Of a stretch of DNA of 64,000 nt, positions 1 to 64,000 are shown piece after piece. A program made the translations under genes and the position numbers. Position 1 is the first letter of the stretch. Every line of letters starts with the position of its first letter. Under the pieces are notes generated by a model. The model was not told where the DNA came from. It saw only the letters and a program-made list of their open reading frames with translations, and ran no database searches. The stretch comes from Pelagomonas calceolata (lineage: Eukaryota; Sar; Pelagophyceae; Pelagomonadales; Pelagomonadaceae), in assembly GCA_918797485.1 (NCBI GenBank), contig CAKKNE010000003.1:2170001-2234000 (forward strand), written 5' to 3'.

Positions 1-28
1 CCCAACACACTGGTTGATGTCCACACAG
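1..28 (-). mobile_element. Introner element IE1 (partial)
   Basis: Only one terminus is inside the window: CTGTGTGGACATCAA on the minus strand (one mismatch to the 15-bp consensus) followed by CCAGTGTG. The adjacent target copy is 29-36, GTATTTGT in gene sense, which provides the GT 5' splice site of the LCB2 intron (phase 2). The second target copy is outside the window. Confidence 0.85.
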
Positions 29-977
29 ACAAATACGCCTTGTACTTCTTCGCCACTTTCGAGATGTTCTTCAGGTCGCAGATCTCGCCCTCCATGCTAT
101 AAATGCCCTCGACCATGACGAGGATCTTGCGCCACGGCCGCCGCGTCCGAGGTCTCCCGTACGCGATGGCCTCGCGCAGCACCTCTTCGAGCGCTTTCGC
201 GTCGTTGTGCTTGAAGGACCGGATCAAGGCGCCGGAGGCCCGACACCCAGCGACGATCGACGAGTGGTTGAGCTCATCACTGACGATCAGGTCACCTCTT
301 CCCACCAGCGCCGGTACGGTCGTCGAATTCGTGCCGTAGCCCATGTTGAACACGACCGCGTCCTCCTTGCCCACGAACTTCGCGACTTTCGCTTCGAGCT
401 TCCTGTGGAGGGGTGTCGTGCCCACGCCCGTCCTCGTGCCTCCACAACTCGTCGGCCACTCTCGCGCCGCTTTGAGTACGGGTTCTCCACAAGTGTTCAT
501 CCAGTCGTCGGCAAATCCTAAATAGTTGTAGGAGCCCAGGTTCAAACACCTACGTTCCTTGCCCGTCTGGATGAGCTCCGACGTCTCCGGGTGCGGCGCG
601 CGCTCCTGCACCGTGATCCAGGCCGACGGCGACGAGCAGATGGGCCGGTTGAAGACGTCGATGATGCGATCATACAAACGACGTGTGTAGAAGTTCTCCC
701 ACGACTTGAGGAGCGGCGCGAGCTTCGTCTGTGGTTTCGACTTGAGCGTGGCGAAGCGCGTCCGTCCCGTCAAGCGCCCCCAGAAGTCCCGCAGGTGGCC
801 GACGGCGATGAGCAACGTGTAGGCGAAGTACGTCGTGAATTCCGTGAAAAAGGACATATCGACGTCCTCCGCGGGCACGATCGCGGGCCGCTCGCCGCGC
901 GCGTTGCTCGGCGTGAAGGGCGCGGGCTTGGGCCGGCGCGGGGGCGTGCCCGGCGCGGCTTTGCCGTTCGTCGCCAT
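1..977 (-). CDS. SPTLC2: Serine palmitoyltransferase subunit 2 (LCB2/SPTLC2), 3' part outside window
   Basis: Known role of the family: PLP-dependent condensation of serine with palmitoyl-CoA in the ER, the first step of sphingolipid synthesis. The ATG is at 977 on the minus strand and exon 1 runs to 37 (313 codons plus two bases). Seen: a hydrophobic segment near residues 45-65, then the LCB2 hallmarks LNLGSYNYLGFA (about residue 147), TGVGTTPLHRKLE where most homologues have GNLDIH-like sequence, SDELNHSSIVAG, and VEGIYSMEGEICDL. Exon 1 ends KKYKA and is cut by an introner whose target duplication begins GTATTTGT; joining there predicts KYKAYLY, as in LCB2 proteins just before VDEAHS. The PLP-binding lysine region lies left of the window. 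The frame is open throughout, so this is a normal gene cut by the window edge. Confidence 0.9.
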   Translation of the reverse strand, partial: MATNGKAAPGTPPRRPKPAPFTPSNARGERPAIVPAEDVDMSFFTEFTTYFAYTLLIAVGHLRDFWGRLTGRTRFATLKSKPQTKLAPLLKSWENFYTRRLYDRIIDVFNRPICSSPSAWITVQERAPHPETSELIQTGKERRCLNLGSYNYLGFADDWMNTCGEPVLKAAREWPTSCGGTRTGVGTTPLHRKLEAKVAKFVGKEDAVVFNMGYGTNSTTVPALVGRGDLIVSDELNHSSIVAGCRASGALIRSFKHNDAKALEEVLREAIAYGRPRTRRPWRKILVMVEGIYSMEGEICDLKNISKVAKKYKAYLSVWTSTSVL

Positions 978-2198: not shown

Positions 2199-2257
2199 CT
2201 GTGTATGTGTTAAGTATTAGCTACAGAATCAGAATTACTCACAGCACAGCGCCGCAC

Positions 2258-3912: not shown

Positions 3913-5232
3913 ATGGCGGACGACGACGTCAACGCCACATTGGCAGACGACACGTACGACCTCGAGGTCGGCCTCGGCGCTTTCGTGAATGATTTGAGCT
4001 GGACGAAGACGCTCATCGCCCTCGGCCTCCTAATGCTGCTCCTGGGCAGCTACACCCACGAACTAGGACAAATGGAGGTCTCGGACGCGACTTTAGGACT
4101 CAAGACGAACCAGCCCATATCTAAGACGCACGACACGCAGAGCAAGGAAGCGCTGGCATTAGCGTTAGGTATGTTCGGCTGGTCGGCGGCGATCGTCTAC
4201 GTGAACGCTTATATTCTCGATGATTTATGTCCGCTGCCCGCAACAATCACGGCCGTGCAACAATTTGCCTGCTTTGTGGTAGCTTACGTCTGTACGCACG
4301 TCCTGCAGATGACGCGGCCCCTCGACATCTCATGGCGGATCTACGTCAAGTGGCTCGTCCCGCTGGCCGCGACCTTTGCGATCTACCTCTGGGCCGGGAA
4401 TTTATCTTATGTGTACCTGGCGCCGGGGTACGTCCAGATGCTCAAGCCCGTGGCCGGGCCCATCATCTACGGGTTGAGTGTTGTGAACGACCCTTCACTC
4501 TTGTCAAAGTACAAGGCCCTGAATTTTTTGATCGTGTTCGGGAGCGTCGCGCTGACGGCGTCGACGTCGGACGACGATGCGTCCACCCACGCTTTGCGGG
4601 GTGTTTTTTGTATTCTGGCCGCATCGGTCGCGAACGCCGTCTACGCCGTCGGGCTCCAGGTGATCCAAGCTCGGGATTTCGAAGAAGTTAGGTTTAACCC
4701 CCTGACGACGATGCTCTACGTCATGCCGTGTTCCGCGGTGTTTTTATTTGTCATCGCGGCGGTGACCGAGTGGACACCTATTGATTCTTTGTCGTCCTGT
4801 GTAGCGTCGTTGCCGTGGTGGCTGTTGCTGCTGGACTGCGCTTGTAGCGTCGGATTCAATCTGACGATGCTCCGATTCATCGGTACACTGTCGGCGGTGA
4901 ACTACGCGCTCTACTCTCTGCTCAAAGATATTGCTTTGCTCACGATCGCCTTCCTCTTTTTCAGCGAGGAGTTGTACGCGTCGCGAATAGAGGGCTGGGC
5001 TGTGACGATCTGCGGCTGCTGCGTCTGGCACTGTGTGGAAATCAACCAGTGAGTTAGGTTATCCGACGTGGCCATGGGGACAATGTCGCGTCGATGGCGT
5101 GGAATCACCACGCCATCGCGTAGACGCAGCTATGGAAAGCACGTCGCGTCGATGGCGTGGGGCGCCCGAAATTTGATTTCCACACAGGTCTGGCAACACA
5201 GGAAGTTGAGAGAGAGGCGTAATCTACAATAA
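3913..5232 (+). CDS. Drug/metabolite-type transporter (SLC35 / triose-phosphate translocator family)
   Basis: Family role: exchange of nucleotide sugars or sugar phosphates across Golgi, ER or plastid membranes. Two exons, 3913-5022 and 5188-5232, give 384 residues. About ten hydrophobic segments are visible, with family-like stretches such as LAPGYVQMLKPVAGP, NYALYSLLKDIALL and FFSEELYA. The intron is introner IE2. Unspliced reading would end in the element as WHCVEINQ; splicing from the GT of the duplication GTCTGGCA to the terminal CAG restores CGCCVWQHRKLRERRNLQ and a TAA at 5230. The true C-terminus is therefore a short basic tail. Its stop lies within a few bases of the stop of the convergent gene on the other strand. 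Substrate unknown. Confidence 0.8.
5031..5187 (+). mobile_element. Introner element IE2 (157 bp)
   Basis: Perfect 15-bp terminal inverted repeats (CTGTGTGGAAATCAA / TTGATTTCCACACAG) and a perfect 8-bp target duplication GTCTGGCA at 5023-5030 and 5188-5195. It contains the internal core GCGTCGATGGCGTGG twice and its inverted copy CCACGCCATCG once. Intron 5023-5187, phase 0. Element and gene have the same orientation. Confidence 0.95.
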
Positions 5233-12796: not shown

Positions 12797-12893
12797 AATC
12801 CAACCCACCACCACGCCATCGACGCGACGACGGCGGCGTTTCCCACGTCCAAAAAAGTAGCCAAAACGACCGCATTCTCGCAGAGATAGAGAG

Positions 12894-14242: not shown

Positions 14243-16292
14243 TCAGGCCGCGCTTTCGCGCGGCCGCGGCCGGACCAGCGTGCCCGTCGGGTCCAGTTCG
14301 ACGAGGCGCGAGTGCTTCAGGACGCGCGCCAGCGACGCCACGTCGGCGCCCATGGCCGCCAGGTTCGGAAAGGCCGCGAGCGCCGCGAGGTCCACGTAGC
14401 CCCCCGTCGCCTCCTGGAGGCCCCGCAGATATTCGTCGTCCGCAAGGTTCGCCGGGCTCAGATAATGATGCACCTGCTGCACGAGCGCCACGCCGCGCGC
14501 TAATTCGTCGTCCGCGACGGCCGCCGCGTCGCTCTCGGGCAGCTCGGCCAGCGCCAGAACCAGCGCGTCGGCGTCGACGGCGGCGCGCCCCGCGACGATG
14601 GCGCACTGCGTGGCGCCGGGCTGCATCGCCGCCTGGGCCACGGCCTTGGCGACGCGCGCGCGCCTCCCGCACCTCGCCTGCTCGTCCACGGAGCAGTCGC
14701 CGACGCACACCAACACGCTCCGCGGAAGCGAGGGCGGCGAGCCGACGACCGGGCTCGCCTCGCCGGGCTTCTCGCAGTCGCAAGCCTCGTCGCCGCAGTC
14801 GCCGCAGTCGACGGGCCGCGACGGCGCCGGCGGCCGCGCGTCGCCGCAGTCGCAATTCTCGCCGCAAGAATTGGACTCGACGGGCCGCGGCGCCGCCGCC
14901 GGCCGCGCGTCGCCGCAGTCGCAGGCCTCGCCGCAACCCGACGATGGTTCGGCCGGCGGCTCGACGGGCCGCGGCGCCGCCGCCGGCCGCGCCGGCCGCC
15001 GCGCGCGCCACCGTTGCGCGCAGCGCGCCGCCTGTACCGCTGCCGAGCCTCGCGTCGCGAAGGCGATGGAACAGCCCGTTTCGCGAATGGGCGGCGCCCG
15101 CAGCGCCTGTGTGGAAATCAAATTACAGGCGCCCCACGCCATCGACGCGATGTTGTTCCCGTGACCGCGTCGGCTCGATGGCATGAAGGCTCACGAAGGT
15201 AAACCTAACTCACTGGTTGATTTCCACACAGCGCAGCGCATCGTCGACCGCCGCCTTCCGCGGGCAGAGGGCTACCTCGTTGCACTCGAGGCAGGCCGCG
15301 CAGTTTGCCGCGTCGTGCAACGCCGCCTGTGTGGAAATCAGAATTTTACGGCGCGTTGCTTGAATCATCGCGTCGTCCTCCGCGCCATCGACGCGACGAC
15401 GCACTGATTGATTTCCACACAGAGCACCACCTGCGGGACTTCTTCAATATCTGGCAATTCCTCTGTGGCGTAAGCACAACCAACCTCCGCGTGCGAGTTG
15501 AGTATCGAGCGCATCACGTACGCCGACGGGTTGCGCACGGCGTCGCCCTTCCGCCTTAGGTTGTCGAGGATGCGGTCCGCCTCTTTTTCAGGGAGGTTGG
15601 CTAGTGCCGCGGACGCCTTGGGGTCGAGCGCGTCGCAGGGGTCCTTCTGCTCGCCGTCGTCCGTGGCGTCGGACTCGTCCCCGCCGGACGGGGGCGGGGG
15701 CTGGACTCCGGGCGCCTCATAGGGCACCCCCTGGGGCACGAAGGCCGGGGCCGCGGGCGACGGCGCGAAACCCTCAAAGCCCGGCGGGCTCTCATTTAGA
15801 GGCGGCGGCGGCCCGTAGTTGTAGTACGGTACCTGTTTTGAAATCAAATTTCGCGGCGCATCTCCGATGGCGTGGCGGGGCGCGTCTCTCACCGCTCGGT
15901 CAGCAGGATCGCGTTGATTTCCACACAGTACGGTACGTAGTACACGGCCCCCGGCGGCGGCTGCGGGCGCAGGGATCCGCCGCCGTGGCAGTGCGCGTTC
16001 TCGACCGACCGGACCTGTGTGGAAATCAACCAGTGAGTTAGGTTAGGACAACGGTGTCGACGGCGTGAGACGCCTGAATTTTGATTTCCACACAGGACCG
16101 GACCACGTAGGCCGACGGGTTGCGAACGTTGCCTCCTTTGTTCCTTAATTTGGTGAGGATCGAGGCGGCCTTCTGCGGCGGCAGCGTCGCAAGCGCGGCG
16201 ACGGCGAGGTCGTCGAGACCATCGTGCCCGGCCTCGTAATCTGCGCGCGGCGGCGAGGCCGGGGGCGACGCCTCGTGGCCGCGCCAGGCCAT
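14243..16292 (-). CDS. hnRNP-Q-acidic-domain-like repeat protein split by four introners
   Basis: Five exons (16292-16104, 16014-15937, 15832-15431, 15326-15240, 15106-14243) join to a continuous 539-residue frame; all four introns are introners in phase 0. Residues about 30-64 and 175-215 are two copies of a motif: AALATLPPQKAASILTKL with GGNVRNPSAYVVRS, and AALANLPEKEADRILDNL with GDAVRNPSAYVMRS, resembling the acidic N-terminal domain of hnRNP Q/R. Between them is a Pro-rich linker; then a Cys-containing stretch (CAACLECNEVALC), three repeats of CGxxCDCGDARP (about residues 280-350), and a helical C-terminus. RNA binding is only inferred. The 5' end could extend upstream, since 16292 is merely the first ATG of the exon. 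Confidence 0.7.
15107..15231 (-). mobile_element. Introner element IE3 (125 bp)
   Basis: Perfect 15-bp terminal inverted repeats and a perfect 8-bp duplication (15099-15106 and 15232-15239), reading GCGCTGCG in gene sense. The intron 15239-15107 is of GC-AG type, phase 0. Same orientation as the gene. Confidence 0.93.
15327..15422 (-). mobile_element. Introner element IE4 (96 bp)
   Basis: Termini CTGTGTGGAAATCAG and TTGATTTCCACACAG. The flanks 15319-15326 and 15423-15430 match at 5 of 8 positions, all differences being A/G transitions, so this looks older. Gene-sense 5' flank GTGGTGCT; phase 0; same orientation as the gene. Confidence 0.87.
15833..15928 (-). mobile_element. Introner element IE5 (96 bp)
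   Basis: Termini CTGTTTTGAAATCAA and TTGATTTCCACACAG with a perfect duplication TACGGTAC (15825-15832 and 15929-15936), GTACCGTA in gene sense. Intron 15936-15833, phase 0; same orientation as the gene. Confidence 0.92.
16015..16095 (+). mobile_element. Introner element IE6 (81 bp)
   Basis: Perfect terminal repeats; perfect duplication GACCGGAC (16007-16014 and 16096-16103), GTCCGGTC in gene sense. The element is in the opposite orientation to the host gene, yet still yields a GT-AG intron (16103-16015, phase 0). Confidence 0.94.
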
Positions 16293-22090: not shown

Positions 22091-23099
22091 ATGGCCGTCG
22101 AGGGCACGGTCGTCGAGGTCAAGCGGGGCGAGCCCGTGCCCGCGCACGTCGGCGTCGGCGACGTCGTCGTCGTCCAGCCGGACCACGGCGGGCCCAGGTT
22201 CGGCATGCCGCACGCCGAGGTGACCGTGAGCGCCCTGAGCTCCGAGTGGCCCTTCCCCATGTGCTGCTCTGTGTGGAAATCAACCAGTGTGTCGGGTGCT
22301 CGGCGATGGCGCGGCCGTCCTGGCTCGATCGAGCGGTGAGGAACCGGCATCGCCACGCTATCGAGCAGGCGTCGCGTCGATGGCGTGGAGGTCGACGCGC
22401 GAACGCGCCGTAAAATGTTGATTTCCACACAGGTGCTGCTCGTGCGTGCTGCCGGACCGCTGCACGCTGGACCAGGGCCTCTGCTGCTACGCCTGCTGGT
22501 GCGCCGTCTGCGCCCACGCGGAGGTCGCCGAGCAGAACGGCATCCGCGGCCTCTGTCGCCAGAAGGAGTGGTACAAGCAGTGCGGCATCATCGTCGGCGT
22601 GTATCTTCTTGCCGGTTATTTTATCATGCCACTCATATCTTGTCTCTTCGTGCCCTGGATCATGACGGCGTACGGCACCCAGGTCCGCGACGGCGTCAAG
22701 CGCAAGTGGGGCCTGCCCGACGACGAGTGCTGCGGACCGACCTGCACGACGTACCTCCCCGGCTACCTCGGAATCGCAACCTGCGTGCCGGTCTTATTCC
22801 CGCATCAGGGCCAGTGCGCGGCGTACCAGATGCTCTACTTTATGAAGAAACGGGGCGCCCCGGCCCCCGTGTGCCCGTGCTACAAGCACGTCTGCGTCCA
22901 CTGCTCGCCCCCGGTCGACGGCGCGGAGGAAGACAAGTACCAGCGGATTTCCCGGAATATGGGAGAGACATTGCGCGAGGCCGACCAGCACATATTGGAA
23001 GATTTAACCGACAACCTTCATAAGGACGTAGCGGAAGGTGACCCGTTTAAAAACCAAAATACGAAGGACGAAACGGTCACCACGACGCAGCCGACCTAG
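22091..23099 (+). CDS. PLAC8-family cysteine-rich membrane protein
   Basis: Exons 22091-22260 and 22433-23099 give 278 residues. The intron is introner IE7 and falls inside the PLAC8 signature: splicing yields PMCCSCVLPDRCTLDQGLCC then YACWCAVCAHAEVAEQNG, the CxxC-rich PLAC8 motif (about residues 57-95). Two hydrophobic segments follow (IIVGVYLLAGYFIMPLISCL, CLFVPWIMTAYGT), then a second Cys-rich part (DECCGPTCTTYLPGYLGIATC, then CPCYKHVCVHCSPP) and a hydrophilic tail. PLAC8 members act in metal (cadmium, zinc) resistance or organ-size control in plants; the substrate here is unknown. Confidence 0.82.
22269..22432 (+). mobile_element. Introner element IE7 (164 bp)
   Basis: Perfect 15-bp terminal repeats; perfect duplication GTGCTGCT at 22261-22268 and 22433-22440. 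Internal cores near 22306 and 22375. Intron 22261-22432, phase 2; same orientation as the gene. Confidence 0.95.
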
Positions 23100-23195: not shown

Positions 23196-25791
23196 TTACC
23201 CACCCCCTTCAGCCTTCGCCAGGAGCGCCTTCGTCTCGGCGTCGGGCGGCGGCCGCGTAGCGATCCAGTAGAGCAGCGCCGCCTTCGACGCGCCGCCGTC
23301 GACGACCTGGAGGGCCATCATCTCCTTCCAGGCGCGCTCCGGGTCGAGCACGGCGCGCTCGCAGACGACGAGCGACGACCACGAGTCGTCGACCGCGGCG
23401 TCGTGCGCGAGGACGACGTCGAGGAACGCCAGGTCCTCGGCGATGAACGAGGGCGGCTTCAAGAGATCCTCCGTCGCCGGCGTCACGGGCAGGATCTGGA
23501 TGCCGTGCGCGTAGATGGGCGACGGCCCGAACCAGGTCTGCGCGCCCGTCGAGAGCGCGCCGAGCACACCGACCATTCTGTTGTGGTCCGCGAACCTCGC
23601 CGGGTAGACCTCGCCGCCGACCGGCATGTGGTAGTAGTACCGCGCGGCGCGCACCTCCATGGCCAGGAGCGTGCGGCACCAGTCCGCCAGCGCGACGTCA
23701 CCCAGGCTCAGGGCCAGGAGGTACGCCCCATAATAAGCGTTCGCCGCCTCGCTCGAACTTTCCTGGGCCTTGCCCTGGCCCATGAAGAAGATGCCGCTCG
23801 CCCACGAGTGCCCCGCGTAGAAGTCCTTGTGCCGCGCGCGCGGGAAGGCCCGCGCGTCGACATCCACACTATCGAGAGAGTGCCCGCTCCCGGGCGACGC
23901 CACGTCGTACAGCAGCGCGAAGAGCGCTCTTCTATGTTTCGCGGCGAAGCCCGCATCATTTTTCACAGCCACCGCGGCCGCGTGCAGCAGGTAGCCGTAG
24001 TGGAAGTGGTGGTCGTTGTAGTAGCCATTTCCAAAATCCGCGTCGTGGTCGTAGAGACCCTTCTCCGTCACGAGCCCGCCGTACGTCGCGTCGTAGACGA
24101 GGGGGTCCCCGTTCCTAGCTTCGAGCCACAATTCTAAGATACTTCGCATCTGGGCGACCGCGCTCGTGAAGGACGCGTCGTCACCCACTTCTTGCGCGAC
24201 GAGCGCCAGGCCCGCGAGCCGCGCGGCCTCCTTGCCGTTCCAGTACGCGTTGCCGAACCAGTCGTCGAAGCAAATCCACGCCGCATCTTTGTCGGTCTCG
24301 CCGGCCGGCCGCATGACGTCGGACTTCACCTGTTTTTTTATGGCATCGACATGTTTCTGCTCCTTGAGGGGCCGCGGCGCCGTGAAGCCTATTTTGGTCA
24401 AAGGCTCCGCGAGGCGCCAACTGCTCCCGAGGACGGCCCTACAGATGCCCTTGAGGCCGCCTCTGTAACGTAGTATGTCCAGGAAACCTATCGACGCGTC
24501 CGCCACCAAGGCGTCGACGTGATGAGGTAAAGCAAGCATCAGCAGCGCCGGCTCCAATTCATCTCTAGGTATGGACGATCCTAAATAAGCGACCTGCCAG
24601 TCGAAGGCCACAATTCCAACATCGGGATCCTTGGCTCGATCGACGGTCACCCTTACCGAACCGGCGGTCGCGTAGGCCTCGGCGTGGGCATCCAACATCA
24701 GCGCGTCTTTTGTGGAATTCGACGGCACGACGGCTGCGCGCATGACTCCTTGAAAGGAATGGGTGGTGTGCGCGCCGGTCGAGTCCCAGGTCAGTGTCAC
24801 TGGAGAAGAGAAGTAGAGGCGCCACGCCTGGCCGTTCGACAACGCAACAGAGAAGACCTCGCCCGTCTGAGCGCCCAAAGAACCGCTACAGCACGGGTGC
24901 TTTACACCACTCGGCTGCGGGCAGCAGTCTCCCTTCATGCTCGCTAGTATACAGCTCGGGTACGCCGCGCACGCTTTCGGCATCGTCTCGTTCGTAACGG
25001 CGTCGACGGCTTGGAGATCCGTAAACAGCGCGTCGGATTTCAGAGACGGGACGCCGTCGACGCGGAACGTGACGTAGGGACTGCCCCGCGCGAACAAGGC
25101 GTCGATCTGCCCCTTGTCTGCAGAACAACGCATCGTCATCGTCAGGTCGTCATAAGCGACGACTTCTCGCTTCTCCAGACCGCCCTTGAGGCTTACGATG
25201 AGGTCCTGCGACCTGCGTGGAAATCAACCAGTGAGTTAGGTTATCCACCTGAACGCCATCGCCTCGCGTCGATGGCGTGGAATCTACACACCATCGAGCA
25301 GATGCAGTTGCGAAATTTGATTTCCACGCAGCTTGCGACGTCGCCAGCGTCAGCGAGTCGTTCGTCGCGAGGACCTCGCCGTAACCTAGTACGACGCCTT
25401 TGTCGGGCAACACGGAAACCGTATACGGCGTCGCGAAGGCCGTGCCGAGGCCGTCGCCACTCGAAGAGGGCCCGCCGACGACCAAATTCGTCCACCACGC
25501 TCCGGTCGGGAAGGGCCGCTTCACGTTACCCCAGAGCTTCGTCGGCGTGTCGGGATGCGTTCGCGCTTCGAAGGGGACCCACTCGGCGGTCGCGCCCTTG
25601 AGCTTCGTGCTTTCTTTGATTGCTTGCCGCTTGAAGACGTCGCCGTAGCCCTTGACCGCGGCGCGGCCCTCCCACCGTCGGCGCGCGATGACCTTGGCGT
25701 AGACGGTTGCTGCTATTAACAGTATCGGTGCTATTATTAATACTCCTTTGCGCAGGAGGCGCTTCGCGCGGGGTGGGGGTTCGTCTTGCAT
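23196..25791 (-). CDS. Glycoside hydrolase family 81 endo-1,3-beta-glucanase, membrane-anchored
   Basis: Family role: hydrolysis of internal beta-1,3 linkages of laminarin/callose. Exons 25791-25340 and 25212-23196 give 822 residues; 25791 is the first ATG (an upstream TTG extends the frame). A basic N-terminus and one membrane segment (KGVLIIAPILLIAATVYA, about residues 14-31) suggest a type II protein. GH81 motifs: PTGAWWTNLVVG near residue 90, FDDWFGNAYWNGKEAARLAG, DHDADFGNGYYNDHHFHYGY (carrying the catalytic Asp region), GHSWASGIFFMGQGKAQESS with SSEAANAYYGAYL (catalytic Glu region). Intron = introner IE8; splicing restores LATSQDLIVSLKGGLEK. It is divergent from a KRE6/SKN1-type gene, suggesting a beta-glucan gene pair. 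Confidence 0.9.
25213..25331 (+). mobile_element. Introner element IE8 (119 bp)
   Basis: Termini CTGCGTGGAAATCAA and TTGATTTCCACGCAG: both carry the same T-to-C change in inverted form. Target copies 25205-25212 and 25332-25339 match 7 of 8; gene-sense 5' flank GTCGCAAG. Intron 25339-25213, phase 2; orientation opposite to the gene. Confidence 0.92.
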
Positions 25792-33583: not shown

Positions 33584-36455
33584 ATGGGTCTCCTCAACGC
33601 CGCGAGCTGGCTCAAAGGCACCATCGACGGCTGGCTCGACACGATAGAATCCCTCGACCCGTCCAAGAACCTGAAGGGCGTCGGGAAAGTAGCCGGCACG
33701 CTCAACAAGTTCAACCCGCTGCACCACCTCACGAAGACGCACGACGGCGAGAAGTATCAGGACCTGCGACCCTCCGAGGTCTTCGAGGATGTCTTGGTCG
33801 ATGCGCGGTTCCGGCCGGGCGCGCCCGTCGGGACCGTCGAGGTCGAAGTGATCTGTGCGGGCGGCTGGACTTCCGTTGGTGTGGGCGACGCCTTCTCAGC
33901 GGAGGACTGCTACGCTCTCGTAGTGCTGGACGGCGGCGTGGGCATCACCTCAATAAAAGACAACGCCAAGGTGCCGGCCTGGTCCGCGGACGAGCGCCGA
34001 GCTTTCAGATTCAGGATTGTCGATCCGGCGGCTACACTATATGTAGCGATCTTTGATGACGACCCTAACCCCTTACAATCCGACGATCCCATCGGCCGGT
34101 GCGCCGTCGGGCTGCGCAGTTTAGCGCCGAACGCGGCCTACGACGCGTGGTTTCCTTTAGTGTTTGCGGCGACCGAAGGCGAAGCTCTAGCTAATGCTGG
34201 AAGAGCATTGGTGGCAGATGAGCCGCTCGCGACGGCGGCGACGAACGCGGCGGGCAAGCACACGCAGAAGGACTCGCGCGGGGCCGTTAGATTACGAGTG
34301 AAGGTCACCTGGGACGACGGCGGCATGACGATGGCGAAGAGCGCGCTGACCGACCTGCTGGGCGAGGCCAAGCCCCAGTACGTGACGTTCCCGGCCACGA
34401 AGGGCGGCAAGGCCCTGCGCGAGAACGTCAGGTTTGCCATGTACGGCGAGGGCGCTTGTCCTCACGATGCGGTCAACGAGCCGTTCTCGATAGGGCGCGT
34501 GTCCGATCATGCTCATGAGTTGGTGGATGTCTTGCTAGGAGCCGTCTCGGGCCTCAAAGACCGCATCGTCGCACTAGTGATGTACCGCAACCCCGTGAGA
34601 TCTCTCGTAGCCCTCGTCGCGTGGCTCACGTCCGTCAGCAACGGCGCGCGCGCGGTGGCGTGGTTGTGGCTCATCGCGGCTCTGGATTTGCGGGACACGC
34701 TAGCCGGCGTGAGAGAAGACGACAAGGCGAAACAAGGCCACAACATCGTGCCTCGCGTCGCCCGGCCCCAGTTCCCGATGCTCGCCTGGGCCAAGGCCAT
34801 CGCGACGGGCACCAAGGCCGTCCAGCACCCGACGTCCGACGAGGAGTTCCAGGCCGCCAAAAAATCAGCGCGCGGCGACGCCGAGTCCGTCGCGATCGAG
34901 CTGATGCTCGAGGAGTGGCGCGCCTCCGGTAAAGTGAAAGTCGTGGAAGAGGAGGACGAGGAGGAGGACGTCGTCGACGAGGACGACTACAAGTCGAAGA
35001 AGCGCGACGCGGCGTCCTCGATTGATCTGCTCGACGGCGTATGGGGCGCCCTCTGAGAGTCACGTCCACCTCCACGCCATCGACGCGACGTCTGCTCACG
35101 CCGTCCGCGCGACGCGCTGATCGACGTCCTACGCAGGCCCATGAAACGCTTCCGCTCCATTCACATCCTCAAACCTTTCTTAGAACCTGTCCAGAGACTG
35201 CTGCTGGGTCTGCTGTTGCCTTTGAGGGCGCTGAACGCCTTGGCGACTGGTAGGGCCGATCCCGTGGCCACGGCTACTTTGGCGGCCGCTTGTTTGGCGA
35301 TCGGTCTCGGCACGATGTTCTATGCGCATTTCATTCATTCGTATGTGATGTGGTTGCTGGGGTGGTTCTTCACAATCCTACTATACATCATCGGCGTCGC
35401 TCTATTTGGGCCTCAGAATTATTTCCTCGTCAAAGCGCATGTGAAAAAGAAGCGGGAGCGCCAGCGCCTGCGCGCTCTCGCGGGCTTCGATCCCAACGGC
35501 CACGCGGCGCTGCAGATCCAGGACTTTTACCGTGCGATTCCCGCGTCCGCGATTCCTTGTCCGACGCTGTCGACGCGACACTGTGCGACGCAGGCAAGTA
35601 TACCAAGAAGCTCAAGAACCTAGCTGCAGAGGCGAAGAAGCGCGCCCACGACGAGAAGTTGGCCGAGAAGAACAGAATCGCGGAAGAAGCGAAGGCGAAA
35701 GCTGAACAAGAAAAATTATTCCAGGAGGCGCAAGCCCGGAGGGCTGCCGTCGCGAAAGCCGATAGAGCCCACTTACAGGCGTTACACGCGCGCCAGGAGG
35801 ACAAGGCGCTAGGTCCCATCAAGGCCAAGAAGAACAGCCACGCTTTGTCCCGATCTGCGTGGAAATCAAGCAGTGAGTTAGGTTGATGTCGCGTCGATGG
35901 CGTAGGCCGGCTGAAATTTGATTTCCACGCAGGTCCCGGCACACCGTCAAGTATCTACGTATCTCAGAGGACAACCGGACCTTCATCTACGAAGATCCTC
36001 CGAACAAGGGGGGCTTCGGCAGCCACGAGTCGAAGTCCGTGCATCTCAAGAACGTGACGAGCGTCGCGCCCTACGATGCGTCCAAGCCGCAGATGTTGAA
36101 ATTTAAGGCGGGCCACAAGGAGTACGAGTTCAATTGTGAGTCGCAGCACGAGCGCACGTTACTAGCCTTGGGGCTGCGCGCTGCGACCGCGCGACTCGCG
36201 AAGCACCCGTCGATGGTCGGCAAGGGCGGCCTGCTGCGCCTCGCCGTGCCCGCCAAGCCCTTAGGGTTCCTCAACGCGGCGCTGACGGAGCGCAACGTGG
36301 CGTTCCCCGAGCCCTTCCGCAGCCGCATCCTCCCGGAGAGCAAGGAGCTCGTTGCGCAGGAGGAGTCCACGAGGGGCGCCACGGGCGCGCCGCCGGCCCC
36401 CGACGCCGGGGACGCGTCGCCGGCGGGCACGCCCTGCACGTGCGAGGTCGCCTGA
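33584..36455 (+). CDS. MCTP-like protein: C2 domain, two-part membrane region, coiled coil, PH-like tail
   Basis: Four exons: 33584 to about 35013, 35137-35531, 35594-35846, 35933-36455. Residues about 75-200 are a C2 domain (VGTVEVEVICAGGWTSVGVG, LYVAIFDDDPNPLQSDDPIG). Then VMYRNPVRSLVALVAWLTSV and, in exon 2, GRADPVATATLAAACLAIGL with VMWLLGWFFTILLYIIGVAL reproduce the two-part C-terminal membrane region of MCTP/plant C2-phosphoribosyltransferase proteins, supporting one gene. Exon 3 is a Lys/Glu/Ala coiled coil (KKLKNLAAEAKKRAHDEKLA); exon 4 has a PH-like stretch (YLRISEDNRTFIYEDPPNKG ... LKFKAGHKEYEFNC). The 5' splice site of intron 1 must be in phase 2; GTCC at 35014 is the best guess, with 34993 (GT) and 35002 (GC) as alternatives. 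Intron 3 is introner IE9. Inference: membrane tethering or lipid contact sites. Confidence 0.65.
35014..35136 (+). other. Intron with introner core (decayed introner?)
   Basis: Contains CCACGCCATCGACGCGACG (35073 onward) and ends CCTACGCAG. No terminal inverted repeats. The 5' site is uncertain; GTCCTCGA against the downstream flank GCCCATGA matches 5 of 8. Confidence 0.5.
35532..35593 (+). other. Intron, decayed introner candidate
   Basis: 62 bases, GTGCGATT...GCGACGCAG; contains CGCTGTCGACGCGAC, two changes from the core CGCCATCGACGCGAC. Splicing joins QDFYR to KYTKKL in frame. Confidence 0.7.
35855..35932 (+). mobile_element. Introner element IE9 (78 bp)
   Basis: Termini CTGCGTGGAAATCAA and TTGATTTCCACGCAG (paired C variant as in IE8). 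Target copies GTCCCGAT (35847-35854) and GTCCCGGC (35933-35940), 6 of 8. Intron 35847-35932, phase 2; same orientation as the gene. Confidence 0.9.
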
Positions 36456-39246: not shown

Positions 39247-40281
39247 CTAGGCCGCCAGCAGCCCCTCGAACGCGCGGAACGCGTGCGTCATGCGGCCCTT
39301 GGACGTCGTGGCGGCGCGGAGGCGCTGGAGATTAAACGCGGCGTCCTCGCGGCCGTGTTCGGCGGCCGCCTGGTACCACATCTTGGCCGCCGCGAGGTCC
39401 GTCGGGAACGCCTTGGCGTAGGAGAAGCGGCCCTCGTAGAGCATGCCCAGATTCGCCATGGCGATCGAAAAGCCGTCTTCCGCGGCCTGCCGCCAGTGCC
39501 CCGCGGCGACGAAGGGGTCCGTCGCGAGGCGGCCCAAGGCGTTCTCGGCCCACGGCGCCCAGGGGCCCTTAGTTTTTGAGAGCGCGTCGAACAGCGCCGC
39601 CGCGCGGGCCTCGTCTCTCGGGCAGCCGTCGCCGTCGGCTAACATGAGTCCTAAATGGACGACGGCCTTGGCGTCGCCGAGCTCGACGGCGCGCTCGTAG
39701 AGCGCGACCGCCCGCGGCGAATCGATCTCGAGGCCGAGGTCGCCGCGGCGGTAGCACGAACCTAACTGGCAGACGGCCGCGGCGCTGTCCTTCGCGGCCC
39801 AGTGCTCGAGCTTCGCGAGCTCGTCGGCCGGCGACATCGGCTCGGCGCGGCAGAACGGGCAGAGGTCCTGCCCACGGATCTCCATCTGCACGTCGCACGC
39901 CTGGCAGATCGTCTTCTGGCTGCGTGGAAATCAACCAGTGAGACGACAACGCGTCGATGGCGTGGGGCGCGAAAGTTGATTTCCACACAGGCGACCACCA
40001 GCAGACCTTGAGGACGCGCATCGACTCCGGGCCCCAGGCCTCGTAGCAGAGCGGGCCTGCGACGCGGTGGCGGGTCGTTGGTGCACGTTGGCGCGCGGGG
40101 CGGACGACGCGACCGTCGCGGCGGGGTCGGGTCAGCCCTCTTCTGGCCCGAATCTGTAGCGACAGCGGACGCGCGGCCCCGGGGCGGCACGCGGGTGCAA
40201 CGGGCGCTCGCGGCGTGGCGTGCGCAGTTCCGCGGTCGCGCGCGGACCACGCTTGCCCCGATTTGGGTCGAAGTGGGGCAT
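39247..40281 (-). CDS. RING-like zinc finger plus Sel1 repeats
   Basis: Three exons, 40281-40164, 40056-39999 and 39919-39247, give a 282-residue frame whose length and motif both fit. Splicing assembles CPLCYEAWGPESMRVLKVCC then QKTICQACDVQM...LCPFCR, a RING-type C-x2-C...C-C...C-x2-C...C-x2-C arrangement that no single open frame contains. It is followed by at least four Sel1-like repeats (AVCQLGSCYRRGDLGLEIDS; AVVHLGLMLADGDGCPRDEA; AENALGRLATDPFVAAGHWR; AMANLGMLYEGRFSYAKAFP). RING-Sel1 proteins of this kind are, to my knowledge, a large family in pelagophytes. Intron 2 is introner IE10. Exon 1 (MPHFDPNRGKRG...) is the least certain part. Confidence 0.7.
39920..39990 (+). mobile_element. 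Introner element IE10 (71 bp)
   Basis: Termini CTGCGTGGAAATCAA and TTGATTTCCACACAG: only one end has the C variant. Core GCGTCGATGGCGTGG present. Flanks in gene sense are GTGGTCGC and CCAGAAGA, so no duplication is detectable. Intron 39998-39920, phase 2; orientation opposite to the gene. Confidence 0.85.
40057..40163 (-). other. Predicted intron of the RING-Sel1 gene
   Basis: GT at 40163 and GTCGCAG ending at 40057 create the first RING cysteine codon (T + GC). No introner core seen. Confidence 0.5.
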
Positions 40282-53211: not shown

Positions 53212-55167
53212 CTAGCAATCCAGGAAGCGGACGAACTCGACGCGGCAGTCGTCGACGAAGCAGGCGCCGACGAGCGCCTCGCCGAGGACCGGGTAGCTCC
53301 TAAGCGTGGCGGGCTCGGTCCGGAGCCCTGCCTTTTCCGCGCGCGCGAGCTCCCCTGCGACGTCGTCGACGGAGATGGCGAGCGCGTTCGACGGCGTCGC
53401 GGCGGTCTTGGGCGTTGACGTCCACTCCATGACGATGCCTATGAACCCGTCGGACGGCAGCAGGGCGAGGCGGATGGACTCGATGCCGAGATCCCTGGGG
53501 AGGCCGAACGCCGGCAGCATATCGCGGTCCGGGGAGGTAATATCCACGAGCGTCTTGAAGCCGAGCGCCTCGAACGCGGCGTTGGCCCGCCGCGCGTCCG
53601 TGACGTTCAGCGTACAGGAGAACGGGTTCGCGTCCCGCGCGCCCTTCCACCAACCCATGAACCGCACGTAGAGCGATATCGCGCCGTGGAAGCTAATGAG
53701 GTAGACGCAGTACCCGTCGGGGTCGTGGAAGACTGCGGCCGTGCCCCCCTTGCCTCCCGGGGGGTGGATCGGGGTCAAGCGCTTGTCGGTGAGCCGTGAC
53801 AGCGCCTTGTCCAGGTCATCCACGTACAGACTCAGTCGCGACAGACCCGCCTCGTAGCAGGCGCCGCGCTGCGGCATGGCCGCGTCCTCGACGAGTAGCA
53901 GGAGCGGCCGCCAGATGGAACTCGCGCCCGGCTCGAGGAAGAGCATGCCGTCGGCGGCGGCGCCCACGCGCGTGTAACCGAACGCCTCGTACCACGGCGT
54001 CGACGCCGCGAGGGACCGGACGCGGATCGAGACGTGCGACACCACGCGGCTCTTCGGCGGCGACGGCCTCGTGAGCGCCGCGGGAGGCACGGCGACGCCC
54101 CCGAGCGCGTCCCACGCCCGGTCGCGCGTCTTGTCCGGCAGCGCCGCGAGGACGCGATAGATCGTCGGGATGGCCCCGCCCGTCGTGACGCGCGTCGGCG
54201 GGTCCGCGAGCACCAGGCACTCGAGCAGGGCCTTGACGGTGATCTGCGGGTCCTCCGCGACGTTCGGGATGTCGGTGTTCATCTTCTGAACTGTGGCCTC
54301 GGCCCAGGCGGCGCCGTAGGGGGCGCGGCGTGCGGCGGGCGCGGCGTCGTAGCCCTTCTTCCACGTGTCGCCGTAGGAGAGGGCGAGCGGCGTGCGCATG
54401 GTCCCCGGCTCGACGACGAAGACCTTGACGCCAAAAGGCTCCTCCTCGGCGCGCAAAATGTCGGAGTAGGCCTCGAGGGCGTGCTTCGACGCGGAGTATG
54501 CGGCGTTCGTCGGCGGCGCCGCGATGCCGCAGACGGACGAGACGTTGACGACGCGGCCCTTCGCGCGGCGCAGCGCCGGCCTGTGTGAGATTCAAATTTC
54601 AGACGCCCCTCGCCATCGACCCGACGTCGTCCCTAACTCACTGGTTGACTTCCACACAGGCACCGGCAGCAGCGCGTAGGTCACCGCGACGTGCGCGTGG
54701 AAGTTGAGCTTCATCGTATACTCGAAGGACACGGGCGGCGCCCAGCCGCAGTTGCCCGGGACGCAGCGGCCGGCGTTGTTCACGAGGCCGTAGAGGCCGC
54801 GCGCGCCGGCGACCTCCTTCGCCACGCGCGCGACCGCCTCGACGCCCTCGGGCGTCGCGAGGTCGGCCACGACCGTCGTCACCGTCGCCACGCCGCCGCC
54901 GGTCGCCTCAATCGCGGCCGCGCCGTCCGGGGTGTAGCACGCCGCGACGACTTCGAAGCCCTCGGCGAGGGCGGCTTCGACGAGGCCCCGGCCAAAGCCA
55001 CTGTCGCAGCCCGTTATCAATACGACACGTGCTCCCAGCGACGTCGCCGACGGCTCGCGCGCGCGGCCACTTGACAGGAGCTTTTTGGCAAGCAAAAGGC
55101 CTATAGCTCCACCCAGGACGAGGGGTGACGTTGAGGTACCGTTGAGTGCACTCGTGATGGCGTCCAT
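53212..55167 (-). CDS. Short-chain dehydrogenase fused to tandem VOC (glyoxalase-like) domains
   Basis: Exons 55167-54668 and 54580-53212 give 622 residues. Residues about 1-30 include a membrane segment (SPLVLGGAIGLLLAKKLL). The SDR part (about 45-330) has LITGCDSGFGRGLVEAALAE (NAD(P)-binding), LVNNAGRCV, RVVNVSSVCGIAAPPTNAAY SASKHALEAY (Ser-Tyr-Lys catalytic set), similar to retinol/hydroxysteroid dehydrogenases. Two VOC domains follow (VVSHVSIRVRSLAASTPWYE ... AVFHDPDGYCVYLISFHG, then NPFSCTLNVTDARRANAAFE onward to CRVEFVRFLDC). The intron is introner IE11 inside the SDR; splicing restores ALLPALRRAKGRVVNVSS. I do not know this fusion from other lineages. Confidence 0.82.
54581..54659 (-). 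mobile_element. Introner element IE11 (79 bp)
   Basis: Termini CTGTGTGAGATTCAA and TTGACTTCCACACAG; target copies GCGCCGGC (54573-54580) and GCACCGGC (54660-54667), 7 of 8. Gene-sense 5' flank GCCGGTGC gives a GC-AG intron (54667-54581), phase 2. Same orientation as the gene. Confidence 0.9.
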
Positions 55168-57230: not shown

Positions 57231-57256
57231 GCTAGTGTCTTTAACAGGCCGCTAGC
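57231..57256 (+). promoter_or_regulatory. Dispersed palindromic promoter motif, copy i
   Basis: GCTAGTGTCTTTAACAG then GCCGCTAGC, spacer two bases longer than the consensus; about 250 bp upstream of the ATG at 57507. Confidence 0.6.
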
Positions 57257-58817: not shown

Positions 58818-59000
58818 TTGTTTTGTGTGTCCTCTCTCGGCGTGGCGTTGGCGTTTGGCCTCGACGCTGTCGCCGCGACTGCTCTCTCAACGGGTATGAA
58901 ATAGGAGTGCCAGTGAGCCTGGCAGGCCTGCTAGCCCGACGGACGACCAGCGTCTTGCTACGGATGAATGATAATTACACACGCTCCTCTCTCTCTCAGA

Positions 59001-59719: not shown

Positions 59720-61023
59720 ATGGCCGACCGGCCTAACACACCGGTGCCCACGATGGCTGACATAGAAAATCCGATTGAAGACGCGCAGTCCTCTGGAGAG
59801 CAGGCCGTCGACCTCGAAGCGATTGAACAGCAGGCCGTCGCCGCGGCGGCCGCCAAGCTGACGCGCCCCACGACGCGCCTCGCCAACGACGTGCTCCTAC
59901 TCATCGCGACGCGCGGGACGGCCAGAGACCTGGGCAAGGCCCAGGTCGTGAGCCGCGGTTGGCAGGCGGCCGCGCGCCGCGAGGTGACTCTGCGGACGGC
60001 CGGCCGCGTCCTGAACGTCTTCGCGGAGAAGCCCGCCTACCTGCGGAGTATAGAAATACTGGACGACGTCGTCGGGCCAAGACAGGAGGGCAGCTGGCGG
60101 GATAGGTGGCCGGAGTTGCAGTATGCCAAGTTCCTAAGGGTCGACGAATCCTTGGCCTTGCACGACCGCGAAACGGTGCTCCAGTTGTTTCGAGCCAATA
60201 TTCACGTCGTCGACAGTGCACAAATCACACTTTTGCTTCTCCACGCCATCGAGCGGGCGTCGCGTCGATGGCGTGGCAGACGGTTCTCTGACCGCGTGAC
60301 TTGGCCAGCACGGCCGCGTCATCGCCGCGAAATGATTTGGTGAAGAGTTATCGTACACACCCGACTCACTGGTTGATTTACGCGCAGGTCATCGAAGCCG
60401 AGCTCGCCAAGATCCGCGAGTCCATCGACTGGAAAGTGGAATCGGGCTGGCCGCGGACGCTGGCCGAGGACTATACGCTAATCATGACGCATTTCAAGGC
60501 GGCGCTGGGCGACAGCGTGAGCGAGGCGTCGCGGGACTTCGCCGCGGCGGTGCATTTGCTGAGAGATGCGTTGACGCTGCGGGCGCCGCTCGAGGCCGTG
60601 GCGCCCGACGCGTACACGGACCTCGACGGCACCTACGGGATGAAGACGAACGATGGCGCTTGGGCCGCGCTGACGCCGGACGCCGCGCCGGGCGTCTCCT
60701 TCGTGACGCACGCGCCCCTCGAGGCGAGCGCGCACCCCCGCTGCCTCTCGGACGCGGGCTTTTCCGCCGCGGTGGTCCTCAACACCGGGATCGACTACGC
60801 GCCGATGGACTCGGACATCGTGCGCTTCCGGTCGCGGGGCCGGGCGGGCGGCAAGCACCGGTCCCTCGTGCGCACCGCGGCGACGCCGTCGGAGCGGCAA
60901 TACGACCTACCGCCGCTGTCGCGCGTCACCCTGGAGCGCATCGACGAGGCCGGGAGCTGGACGGAGTTCGGAAGGATGCCGCACCGGCGGCTGTATACGG
61001 TCGTCGTGGAGTTCTTGGCGTAA
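59720..61023 (+). CDS. F-box-like protein of unknown function
   Basis: Exons 59720-60205 and 60388-61023 give 373 residues. Residues about 50-90 (LANDVLLLIATRGTARDLGK then AQVVSRGWQAAARREVTLR) fit the F-box pattern: LPxDVLxxI, a loss-of-contact loop, LxxxxxVSRxW. The rest (GVSFVTHAPLEASAHPRCLS, VVLNTGIDYAPMDSDIVRFR, RVTLERIDEAGSWTEFGRMP) is a beta-rich domain I do not recognise. The intron is introner IE12; splicing joins RANIH to VIEAELAKIRES. F-box proteins usually recruit substrates to SCF ubiquitin ligases; that role is inferred. Confidence 0.65.
60214..60387 (-). mobile_element. Introner element IE12 (174 bp, the longest)
   Basis: Diverged termini CAGTGCACAAATCAC and TTGATTTACGCGCAG; subterminal CTCACTGG well kept. 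Target copies GTCGTCGA (60206-60213) and GTCATCGA (60388-60395), 7 of 8. Cores CCACGCCATCGAGCG and GCGTCGATGGCGTGG near 60243-60276. Intron 60206-60387, phase 0; orientation opposite to the gene. Confidence 0.88.
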
Positions 61024-61638
61024 GGGATTTGTAGTGTAGTAGCATGTCTGGCGTGTTCGCGTACAACGCATGGCAAGCACAGGGCCGGCGGCGGGTTGTT
61101 ATTCTTTTCGCGTGGACGCCTCCGCGGTCAATGGCAGCTCTAGGGATTTTTCTCACGAGGAAAGTCGATTGCTAGAGGCCTTGTTCGCTAGGTGAGGCCA
61201 AGTTTGCCAGACAACAAACGCGGGCGCAACGCGCGGCTCAGCGCCCCACCAATCATTCAAAACTCGTCCCTCGCGTCACACCGGCGACGTTCAGAAGCTT
61301 TTCTGGTGCCCTAGGAGCGTTGGTGTAACCCCCGGCCTCCTGGGAATCCCTAGCATTTTCGATGCTCGCGGCGCGAAAGCCGTTCAACAAGAGCGCCGCG
61401 GACCCGCGGGACGAGGACGTCGCATTCTTCTACGCCGAAGAGGCGAACCACGACGCGGAGGAGGCGATCTTCCAGGAGCTCTACGGTACCTGAACGGCCA
61501 CTACCCCCACTCCCCCTTGCTCGCCCTAGAACCAAGTCTAGTAGTAACGCTTGAGCCTGAAGAAATCTACTAGTAGTATGGACCAGAGGCGGAGTACGCC
61601 ATCGCCGCGGCTAGTAGACTCGGAGCAACACTTTACTC
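61024..61638. other. Intergenic region between convergent genes
   Basis: 615 bases; holds one short coding-like frame (61362-61493) and nothing else recognisable. Confidence 0.4.
61362..61493 (+). CDS. Possible 43-residue protein or orphan first exon
   Basis: MLAARKPFNKSAADPRDEDV then AFFYAEEANHDAEEAIFQEL YGT and TGA. Charged and helical; codon use resembles neighbouring genes. A GT at 61485 (in CTACGGTACC) could be a donor, but no downstream exon is seen before the convergent gene. Confidence 0.3.
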   Translation: MLAARKPFNKSAADPRDEDVAFFYAEEANHDAEEAIFQELYGT

Positions 61639-64000
61639 CTAATCCGCAGGCTTCTTCGTCTTCGGCAGAAATGCGTGCGTGTCCGGCTTGGAGCCGAAGC
61701 GCGACGACGCGTCGGGCCGCCAGTTGCGCGAGCCGTCGCCGAGCGCCTTGACGAGCTCCTTCTCGCGTTTGCGGTCCTCGATGGCTTCTCGCTTCTGCCG
61801 CTCGATCGTCGCCTTGCTGAGCGCCTCGGCCCGTGTCTGCCGGAGATTCTCTCGGTACGCCTCGTCGGCGGCGAAGCGAGCATCTTCGTCCGCCTTGAGC
61901 TTGAGGGCTGCCTCTCGCCGACGGGCCCGCGCGGCGGCGGCGCGCTTGGCTCTCATTTCCGCCTCAGCACGCAGCCTCGCGCGCGCCTCGTCGCGCCGCC
62001 GCGCTTCCGCCGCCTGCCGTTTCGCGTCGGCCTCGGCGCGAGCCTTCCGAGCGGCGTCTCGGCGAGCATCTTCCTCGGACTTTCGCAAGCGCGCCGCTTC
62101 CTCCAATTCTGCCCTACGCTTCCTTGCCGCTTCTCTCCGTCGCGCGGCGGCCGCGTCGTCAAGGGCTTTCTGTTCCGCGAGCTTTCGTGCGTTTTCGGCG
62201 TCCGCGAGGGCCTTGGCGTGTTTCCGTTCGGCTTCCTCCTCCTTCTTGCGGGCCGCGGCAGCTTCACGCTCCCTCCTCAGGCGTTCCAGCTCCTCCTTCC
62301 GGCGAGCTTCATCTTCCAATCTCTTTCGTTCCTTCTCTTCGGCGAGGGCCTTGAGGCGAGCCTCCTCTTCGGCCGCCTTGCGGCGCGCCTCTTCATCCTT
62401 CGCTTTGCGGCGTGCCTCCGCTTCCTCGAGAGCCTTCCGTTTTCGCTCCGCTTCGTCGGCCAACCGTTGCTGTTCCGCGGCCTCGCGCTCCGCTTCCTGG
62501 GCCTTCCGCTTCGCGTCCTCGGCGGCCTTCGCCTCGGCTCTCGCTTTGGCGTCCAATTCAGCTTCGTGGCGTGTGGGATCGTGGCGCCACTGAATGATCA
62601 ATTCGACAGCGCCTTCAGCGCCCTCACCAGATAATTCGTACCATTTTTGCTCGGTCTTGCCCTGCAAGGGCATGAGATCGATGCTCACGGAGCCCATGGC
62701 ATCGTTGCTGGAAATGGTGTCGGCATCTTCACACTTGACCTCGAGCACGCAGGTGCCGCCGCAGTCCTCAGGCTTTAATGGAATGCTGTATTGCTCTTTC
62801 CAAATTGGATCTAAGGTGGTCTTCTGGGCCTTAGTCTTGCCTGTCCACGAGGCTTCGGCGGCCGTCGACAGCGCGAAGGTCAGCTTCGGATCGCTACTTC
62901 CGCCAGCGCTGAAGAGATTGCGGTCACGAATAGCGAGCTTCCTGCCACGGAACGCGGCGACCCGTAATTCGTTGACCGGGCCGTCCGACATGTTCTCGCG
63001 ATCGAACGGGTCCCAATCTAGGGACGCGTTGTACCGCCACAGGATAATCAGCTCGACGTCGCCGTGGACGTCGCCCTTGCACTTCTTCTTCGTGAGCGGA
63101 TCCTCGGGCTGCAGTGAATACCACTTTCTCGTGATCGTGTTCGGCTTGAGCTGCGACAGGTCGATGCCCTCAGTGCTCCCCATAAAGTCCGCCGCCGAGA
63201 TCTCGTCGACGTCCTCGACGCGGCAGTGCAGCGTCTCCCCGCCGTTCCCTGTTAGCGGCACGCACCAGGTTTCCCGCCACCGCGGATTGAGGGTCTTCTT
63301 GAGCGTCTCTGTCGTGTGCGAGAGCTTCACCGACGACCCGCCGACGACGTTCAGGATGGCTCGAGGGTCCGACGTGCCACCACTACTAAAGATATTCGAG
63401 TCTTTGATGACGAGATTTCGGCCTTGCGACACCACCACGCAGAGCTCATTGGGAGTCTTGGCCCGAGACGCCTCCTCGACTTCGTCGAAGGGGTCGAAGG
63501 CCAGCGCGGGATCATGGTACCACTGTAGAATTAACTCTACTTCTCCCTCGTCGAGTGCATACCACTTCTTCGAGACGGCCTGATTACGCAGCTCGGCCAG
63601 GTCTACTTCGAAGCTCCCCATCGAGTCATCCTTCGAGACAGCGTCACGGTCAAAGCACTCGACCCGCAGCTTCGGCAGCGGCTCGAGATCAGGTAATGGC
63701 TGTGTGAAGATCTCTCTCCAGACTGGATCGACGGTCTTGTTTTGCACCGTCGAGTGGAAGGTCACATTGGTTCCCGTGAGCGAGAACTTGCAGTACGGAT
63801 CGGAGGAGCCGCCCTTGGACCTGTGGGCAAATCAACCAGTGAGTCAAGAGCCGTAAAGTTTGATTTCGGCACCGCATGCGACAGCAAATTCTTGTCCTTG
63901 ACGGCCAGCTCGCGCCCCTGGCTCAATCCGACCCGCAATTCGTTCGGTGCTTTGTCGGGGAATTTCGGGGCGGCGAACGGCTTCCAGGCGTTCGTCGGCG
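61639..64000 (-). CDS. Multi-C2-domain protein with long coiled coil (5' end outside window)
   Basis: Exons 64000(+)-63883 and 63820-61639. Three C2-like units of about 165 residues: NELRVGLSQGRELAVKDKNL L + SKGGSSDPYCKFSL; NELCVVVSQGRNLVIKDSNI with GGTSDPRAILNVV; NELRVAAFRGRKLAIRDRNL with GGSSDPKLTFALS. Each keeps the first calcium-binding Asp (KD/RD) and SDP, and ends VELIIQWRHDP or similar. Then about 250 residues of Ala/Glu/Arg/Lys heptads (AKAAEDAKRKAQEAEREAAE...), a long coiled coil, and a short tail with SKPDTHAFLPKTKKPAD. Introner IE13 splits the first unit; splicing restores KNLLSKGGSSDPYC. Inference: calcium-dependent membrane-cytoskeleton linker. Confidence 0.8.
63821..63874 (+). 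mobile_element. Introner element IE13 (54 bp, shortest, diverged)
   Basis: Termini CTGTGGGCAAATCAA and TTGATTTCGGCACCG; subterminal CCAGTGAGT kept, core lost. Target copies in gene sense GTCGCATG and GTCCAAGG, 5 of 8. Intron 63882-63821, phase 2; orientation opposite to the gene. Confidence 0.83.

Follow-up and report, generated by a model that had tools for sequence, protein, structure and literature searches.

A family of introner elements with DNA-transposon anatomy in the genes of Pelagomonas calceolata

Thirteen introners in ten genes

The window analyzed here, a 64,000-nucleotide stretch of the nuclear genome of the pelagophyte Pelagomonas calceolata (G000:C3:2170001-2234000), carries introners, i.e., introns that closely resemble one another although they occupy many unrelated sites in genes, at 13 positions in ten genes. 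The elements are bounded by 15-bp terminal inverted repeats (TIRs) and flanked by 8-bp target-site duplications (TSDs). At all 13 positions, one strand offers GT or GC at the first TSD base and AG closing the opposite TIR, and excision of the element together with one TSD leaves the reading frame open in every case. As judged from sequence, they very probably belong to one family of short non-autonomous DNA transposons, comprising at least subfamilies A and B, that act as introners by becoming spliceosomal introns and are spliced exactly at the protein level. An earlier note on this DNA had listed 13 copies with coordinates, lengths, and TSDs, all of which we confirm; the thirteenth runs past the window edge and, with the adjoining DNA added, is a complete copy of 202 bp with a perfect TSD. 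The features are given below by window position, each intron consisting of an element and the TSD copy that would serve as 5′ splice site (donor).

1..28, minus strand: right end of a 202-bp introner that continues to G000:C3:2169827; LCB2 gene; perfect TSD ACAAATAC
29..36, minus strand: TSD copy forming the donor of the LCB2 introner, GTATTTGT on the gene strand
5023..5187, plus strand: intron of TSD copy 5023-5030 and introner 5031-5187 (subfamily B); TPT/EamA-like transporter gene (TPT match slightly under the cut-off); TIRs exact, TSD 8/8, GT donor
15107..15239, minus strand: intron of introner 15107-15231 and donor TSD 15232-15239; La-domain gene; TSD 8/8, GC donor
15327..15430, minus strand: intron of introner 15327-15422 and donor TSD; La-domain gene; TSD 5/8, GT donor
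15833..15936, minus strand: intron of introner 15833-15928 and donor TSD; La-domain gene; TSD 8/8, GT donor
16015..16103, minus strand: intron of introner 16015-16095, inverted relative to the gene, and donor TSD; La-domain gene; TSD 8/8, GT donor
22261..22432, plus strand: intron of donor TSD and introner 22269-22432 (subfamily A); cysteine-rich protein gene; TSD 8/8, GT donor; open frame over the junction
25213..25339, minus strand: intron of introner 25213-25331, inverted relative to the gene, and donor TSD; GH81 gene; TSD 7/8; open frame linked to the GH81 domains, whose matched stretches do not include the junction
35847..35932, plus strand: intron of donor TSD and introner 35855-35932; gene without Pfam match at E <= 0.001; TSD 6/8; strand and frame backed by the codon model described below
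39920..39998, minus strand: intron of introner 39920-39990, inverted relative to the gene, and donor GTGGTCGC; Sel1-repeat gene; TSD lost (2/8), GT donor retained
54581..54667, minus strand: intron of introner 54581-54659 and donor TSD; SDR-glyoxalase gene; GC donor
60206..60387, plus strand: intron of donor GTCGTCGA and introner 60214-60387, left TIR decayed, inverted relative to the gene; TSD 7/8; open frame over the junction
63821..63882, minus strand: intron of introner 63821-63874 (54 bp), inverted relative to the gene, and donor TSD; C2-domain gene

Removal of the four elements from the La-domain gene yields a product equal to the NCBI P. calceolata protein P0001 (100% over 539 amino acids). 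Protein P0002, at 87% identity to this product, aligns without gaps at the same four junctions, as does P0003 (83%), although a gap of one residue occurs three residues beyond one junction. The spliced LCB2 product is gap-free to Arabidopsis LCB2a (7yjk_B) over the motif split by the element, the SDR junction lies inside an adh_short match and is gap-free in 11 homologues, and the C2 junction is located inside the Pfam C2 match. Support is weaker for the GH81 and transporter genes because their junctions lie beyond the Pfam match or at its margin. A look-up among annotated proteins covered five junctions, four of which, all in one gene, equal a P. calceolata protein. The evidence for exact removal thus comprises the four P0001 junctions, one in LCB2, and one in SDR, while the remaining junctions are backed by open frames and domains. 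Among the protein families that splicing had been proposed to restore, SDR, GH81, and C2 were recovered with Pfam and LCB2 with Protein Data Bank (PDB) sequences, whereas PLAC8 and RING gave no such Pfam match at E <= 0.001: the gene formerly called RING encodes Sel1 repeats, and the one called PLAC8 encodes a cysteine-rich protein without a Pfam match.

The element family and its genome-wide splice-site signature

With up to three mismatches allowed, the window contains 25 matches to the 15-bp terminus, compared with 0.62 expected from shuffles. The 12 copies complete in the window measure 54-174 bp, and 4/12 have both termini exact. Their TSDs are perfect in five copies (5031, 15107, 15833, 16015, 22269), match at 5-7 of 8 positions in six (15327, 25213, 35855, 54581, 63821, 60214), and at 2/8 in copy 39920; once copy 1-28, cut by the window edge, is taken whole, at least 5/8 TSD bases match in 12/13 copies and 8/8 in 6/13. 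Of the two internal motifs singled out in the earlier note, the core GCGTCGATGGCGTGG is in strong excess (49 in the window vs 7 by chance), whereas the subterminal CCAGTGAGTTAGG alone is hardly enriched (15 vs 9.5 at up to three mismatches). Extra GCGTCGATGGCGTGG cores without clear TIRs occur at window positions 12811, 35072, 46539, 46815, and 52288-52413 and are probably older introner copies. The last of these lies inside an apparent intron that starts with GTATGT and ends with CACACAG, and is probably an old, eroded introner.

Beyond the window, we searched the 32,445,274-bp assembly (8 contigs), which contains 2,516 termini at up to one mismatch, and characterized a sample of 81 elements. 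Of these, 21 came from 20 loci picked for the CCAGTGAG end, 36 + 8 from loci picked for an exact terminus on contig C1, and only 16 (11 in the window and five in other blocks) were found without terminus-based choice; window copies 1-28 and 60214 lay outside the script criteria and are not included. The genome also carries two large duplications at >99% identity. In the sample of 81, subfamily A accounts for 40 elements, subfamily B for 29, and 12 belong to neither. The subfamily A consensus is 203 bp long, so that an unshortened element plus TSD spans ca. 211 bp (203 + 8), and 13 of the 14 sampled copies of at least 196 bp belong to this subfamily, with 89.5-97% identity to its consensus. Subfamily B has the TIR, a subterminal CCAGTG, and the core in common with A and differs in the interior. 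With lengths of 48-208 bp and TIRs, the elements have the anatomy of miniature inverted-repeat transposable elements (MITEs) and are too short for a transposase.

The TSD is perfect in 28/81 elements and matches at 7/8 or more positions in 54/81. Element length is positively correlated with TSD matching (Spearman 0.34, p = 0.002) and negatively with the number of TIR mismatches (Spearman -0.43, p = 7e-5), as expected if insertions begin near 203 bp and then erode while remaining spliceable. At loci L119 and L124, most of one TIR is gone, and the CACAG end is kept before a duplication remnant starting with GT.

Exact 15-bp TIRs occur 1,562 times in the assembly (790 + 772), whereas the reversed control gave none. 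GY is present at -8 in 493 + 494 of them, RC at -2 in 515 + 487, and both in 258 + 236. One or the other is found in 1,495/1,562 (95.7%), as opposed to ca. 30% by chance. Both together mark 31.6% of exact TIRs, and at the end that splicing does not constrain, RC is about twice as frequent as the 16% expected, an excess that points to a symmetric target preference, GYNNNNRC. By arithmetic, this preference without selection would give a union of 54%; allowing for it, at most ca. 9% of copies can be free of splice constraint, even if all 67 exceptions are counted.

These figures bear on the idea that we are dealing with ordinary MITEs inserted without regard to genes, of which only the genic copies were noticed in a rich window. 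Their TIR and TSD anatomy would suit such elements, and the window is indeed rich, with 11 exact termini in 64 kb, or 172 per Mb, compared with 48 per Mb genome-wide (3.6-fold); other blocks contained five elements in 200 kb, of which 20 kb had been picked for a hAT gene. The splice-site signature at 95.7% of exact termini, together with the ca. 9% ceiling on copies without it, largely refutes this idea, which we consider scarcely credible. The description in the earlier note of DNA-transposon-type introners that lie in genes and are exactly spliced is supported by TIRs, TSDs, frames, and protein-level junctions.

In the sample, GY opens the TSD on one or both strands of every element (81/81), whereas 12 shifted positions (-6 to +6) gave 10-34 of 81 (mean 24). 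A splice-site-blind codon model, trained on ten long open reading frames of the window of which two are exons of scored genes, placed the gene on the GY strand in 78/81 cases; where GY is present on one strand only, it agreed in 56/59, and both flanks preferred the same spliced frame in 66/81. Among the 78 strand-agreeing elements, 35 are in sense and 38 in antisense orientation, with five undecided, the call being based on the end nearer to CCAGTGAGT. The donor is GT in 58 and GC in 20, far above the few per cent that GC donors usually reach in eukaryotes, and intron phases 0/1/2 are distributed 32/13/33.

One splice site resides in the element (AG closing an intact TIR) and the other in the duplication (GY). 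Either orientation works because the TIR is symmetric, each end reading TTGATTTCCACACAG outwards. The TIR also contains TTGAT, which fits a branch-point consensus and whose A lies 12 nt away from the splice site; on this match, the TIR probably supplies the branch point as well. In a fold of the consensus RNA the two TIRs are paired (z = -5.9 vs 200 shuffles), and such pairing would place both splice sites close together.

A splice-competent context at nearly all exact termini is also what reverse splicing into transcripts would produce, i.e., the elements could be introns copied via RNA into new sites with no DNA transposon involved. Copying of this kind should, however, favor one orientation, at odds with the 35 vs 38 observed, and 15-bp TIRs with 8-bp duplications outside them argue against it further. 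We regard this route as very improbable and retain DNA-transposon-type introners as the interpretation.

Several observations weigh against that interpretation. The codon model disagreed on strand in 3/81 elements, chose the opposite strand for intron 5023..5187, and disagreed on frame in 15/81. For several elements, long frames also exist on the other strand or without splicing, and in GC-rich DNA with alternative open frames, an open frame alone is weak evidence. The fifth junction of the protein look-up returned no P. calceolata match for the spliced SDR product, which suggests that the gene may be annotated differently there. Of the 67 terminus-chosen loci (L001-L008 without L004, which overlaps L003, plus L073-L132), six had no partner terminus by script. 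Inspection of the sequences revealed an eroded partner at L088, L119, and L124; the other three, L096, L118, and L129, remain single and unexplained. Lastly, no transposase with introner termini was found in genome profile searches or in the loci examined.

A hAT transposon and the search for a mobilizing transposase

A full-length copy with a transposase between the same termini, as envisaged in the earlier note, did not emerge: no long element between introner termini was recognized at the 67 loci chosen from the termini listed. At each of the three single loci, the exact terminus is at position 301 and is accompanied by a subterminal sequence that is CAGTGAG-like or similar. The two termini of L129 point the same way, and the 5 kb past L118 contain no more than a weak match, likewise in the same direction. 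At L096, an ATG follows 17 bases past the splice end, and the element is possibly an intron of the 5′ untranslated region. Some 3.4 kb beyond L096, an exact opposite terminus occurs, but it is part of its own 71-bp element with the perfect duplication GCGAGGAC. Frames of at least 140 codons in the 2.76 kb before its end were not transposase-like by eye. The 71-bp introner with this duplication, at L134:2680-2750 and outside the 81, lacks one base of its left TIR and adjoins a kinesin-like frame that reads into it.

Profile searches revealed a hAT transposon at G000:C4:4499549-4503199 (L053-L054), 3,651 bp long, with a 721-codon open frame and a hAT dimerization domain. It is delimited by a perfect 8-bp TSD (TTGCTCGC) and a perfect TIR of at least 20 bp, with no errors in TIR and TSD compared with two in the best of 30 shuffles. 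The public cluster P0034 (113 sequences) is 96% identical over 94% of the frame. This was the one genome match to PF05699, a profile that gave none in the control genomes, so more hAT genes may be missed.

hAT elements make 8-bp duplications, as do other superfamilies, and the GTNNNNAC-like target preference of the introners resembles that of some hAT elements. The 8-bp introner TSDs, this target preference, and a transposon with the 721-codon frame, dimerization domain, perfect TIRs, and perfect TSD would fit mobilization of the introners by the single hAT transposon detected. Its TIR, CAGGGCAGCAGAAGGGCAAG, is nevertheless unlike that of the introners, and no introner terminus pair flanks it within the 20 kb read. 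The family thus has the TSD length of the hAT superfamily, while termini in common with a hAT transposase gene were not found, and we judge this particular mobilizer to be unlikely.

Searches for MULE (PF10551) and Merlin (PF12762) transposases gave no genome match, with positive controls in three genomes and one, respectively; KDZ (PF18758) and P-element (PF21787) profiles also gave none, but had no positive control, so absence is not established for these two. No relatives of the hAT element were confirmed in viral contigs or in PDB sequences. A viral vehicle was considered and discarded: the 15-mer occurs once each in 43 IMG/VR stretches, without a partner terminus within 600 bp at up to three mismatches in the DNA examined, which indicates chance matches. 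Rfam gave no match in the window.

Proposed mechanism, age and known systems

We propose that a transposase acting in trans would insert an element of ca. 203 bp by a DNA cut-and-paste step, duplicating 8 bp and favoring GYNNNNRC targets symmetrically. If GT or GC opens the duplicated target as read along the coding strand, this copy would become the 5′ splice site, and the element, in either orientation, would supply the 3′ splice site and probably the branch point. Splicing would then remove the element and one TSD and give back the original coding sequence exactly. Unspliceable insertions would presumably be lost through purifying selection, and surviving copies would shrink by internal deletion with their splice signals kept.

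It is conceivable, although we hold this only tentatively, that a transposon combining a GYNNNNRC target with symmetric acceptor ends amounts to an orientation-independent, ready-made intron that exists almost only as introns. If unspliceable insertions were lost from genes while those between genes were neutral, intergenic copies should be more numerous, except in a genome with almost no intergenic DNA. An almost exclusively intronic existence would imply that insertion is steered to transcribed coding DNA, or that loss elsewhere is efficient, beyond passive filtering in genes.

Recent activity, also suggested in the earlier note, has moderate support. The best 40 of 935 genome-wide candidates are 96-98% identical to the 203-bp consensus, none being identical to it, and one insertion polymorphism in a relative can be deduced from protein. 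The JGI metagenome protein P0012 is 98.4% identical to P0006 (423/430 positions) save for an in-frame insert of 29 residues, in which VHKSNF resembles the left TIR variant at window position 60214 and HAIDAT fits the core. At the ends of the insert, a GTAC... duplication and CGCAG ahead of the second copy can be made out. The insert seems to be an introner read through by the gene caller. If this is right, the family would be present in a second species, presumably a pelagophyte with 45-48% identity to P. calceolata in this protein, and would vary between close relatives. Read-through inserts in protein databases could in this way reveal introner polymorphisms.

Introners represent a known yet rarely seen route to new introns, whose origin is a long-standing question. 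At two termini per element, the 2,516 termini would correspond to ca. 1,260 elements, or, on the published gene and intron figures given below, about one sixth of P. calceolata introns. Present in two orientations across the genome, the family constitutes a natural experiment on minimal intron requirements, in which copies appear to grade from 203 bp with intact duplications down to short introns that have eroded.

The mechanism itself is already published, and the family is a well-characterized addition to the known introner class. Huff, Zilberman and Roy reportedly described DNA-transposon-type introners in Aureococcus anophagefferens in 2016, with one splice site said to lie in the element and the other to come from the duplication. 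Aureococcus introners are described as having direct repeats and TIRs of constant length, with canonical splice motifs (PMC7789003), and a length of ca. 210 bp (PMC9481584). The resemblance to the P. calceolata family, which extends to the pelagophyte host, is one of description. No homology is reported between introners of different species save recently diverged ones (PMC9860276). The Amoebophrya introners are likewise repeated introns with inverted and direct repeats, but the latter measure 3-5 nt and many splice sites are non-canonical (PMC7789003), in contrast to 8 bp and GT/GC-AG here. Among the families of Gozashti et al. 2022, obtained with a method that permitted opposite-orientation copies, one has a 4-bp TSD (Fig. 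2B) and that of Aureococcus sp. an 8-bp TSD (Fig. 2F); the latter adds 12 bp to the transcript, whereas the P. calceolata family adds nothing, and Pelagomonas does not occur in the text of that paper (PMC9860276).

For P. calceolata RCC100 itself, the published genome comprises 32.4 Mb of nuclear DNA in six contigs, in addition to plastid and mitochondrion, with 16,667 genes, 0.45 intron per gene, and an annotation that used transcripts (PMC9481584). Its intron lengths peak at 210 bp, a peak already likened there to Aureococcus introners and fitted by our element plus TSD of ca. 211 bp; the sections of PMC9481584 on this peak mention neither TIRs nor TSDs, and no orientation or copy count. No other paper on P. 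calceolata introners was apparent by title or abstract opening in the open-licence literature. Relative to the parts of these sources consulted, what is new here is the terminal anatomy, the copy count, the orientation balance, the target preference, and the bound on splice constraint.

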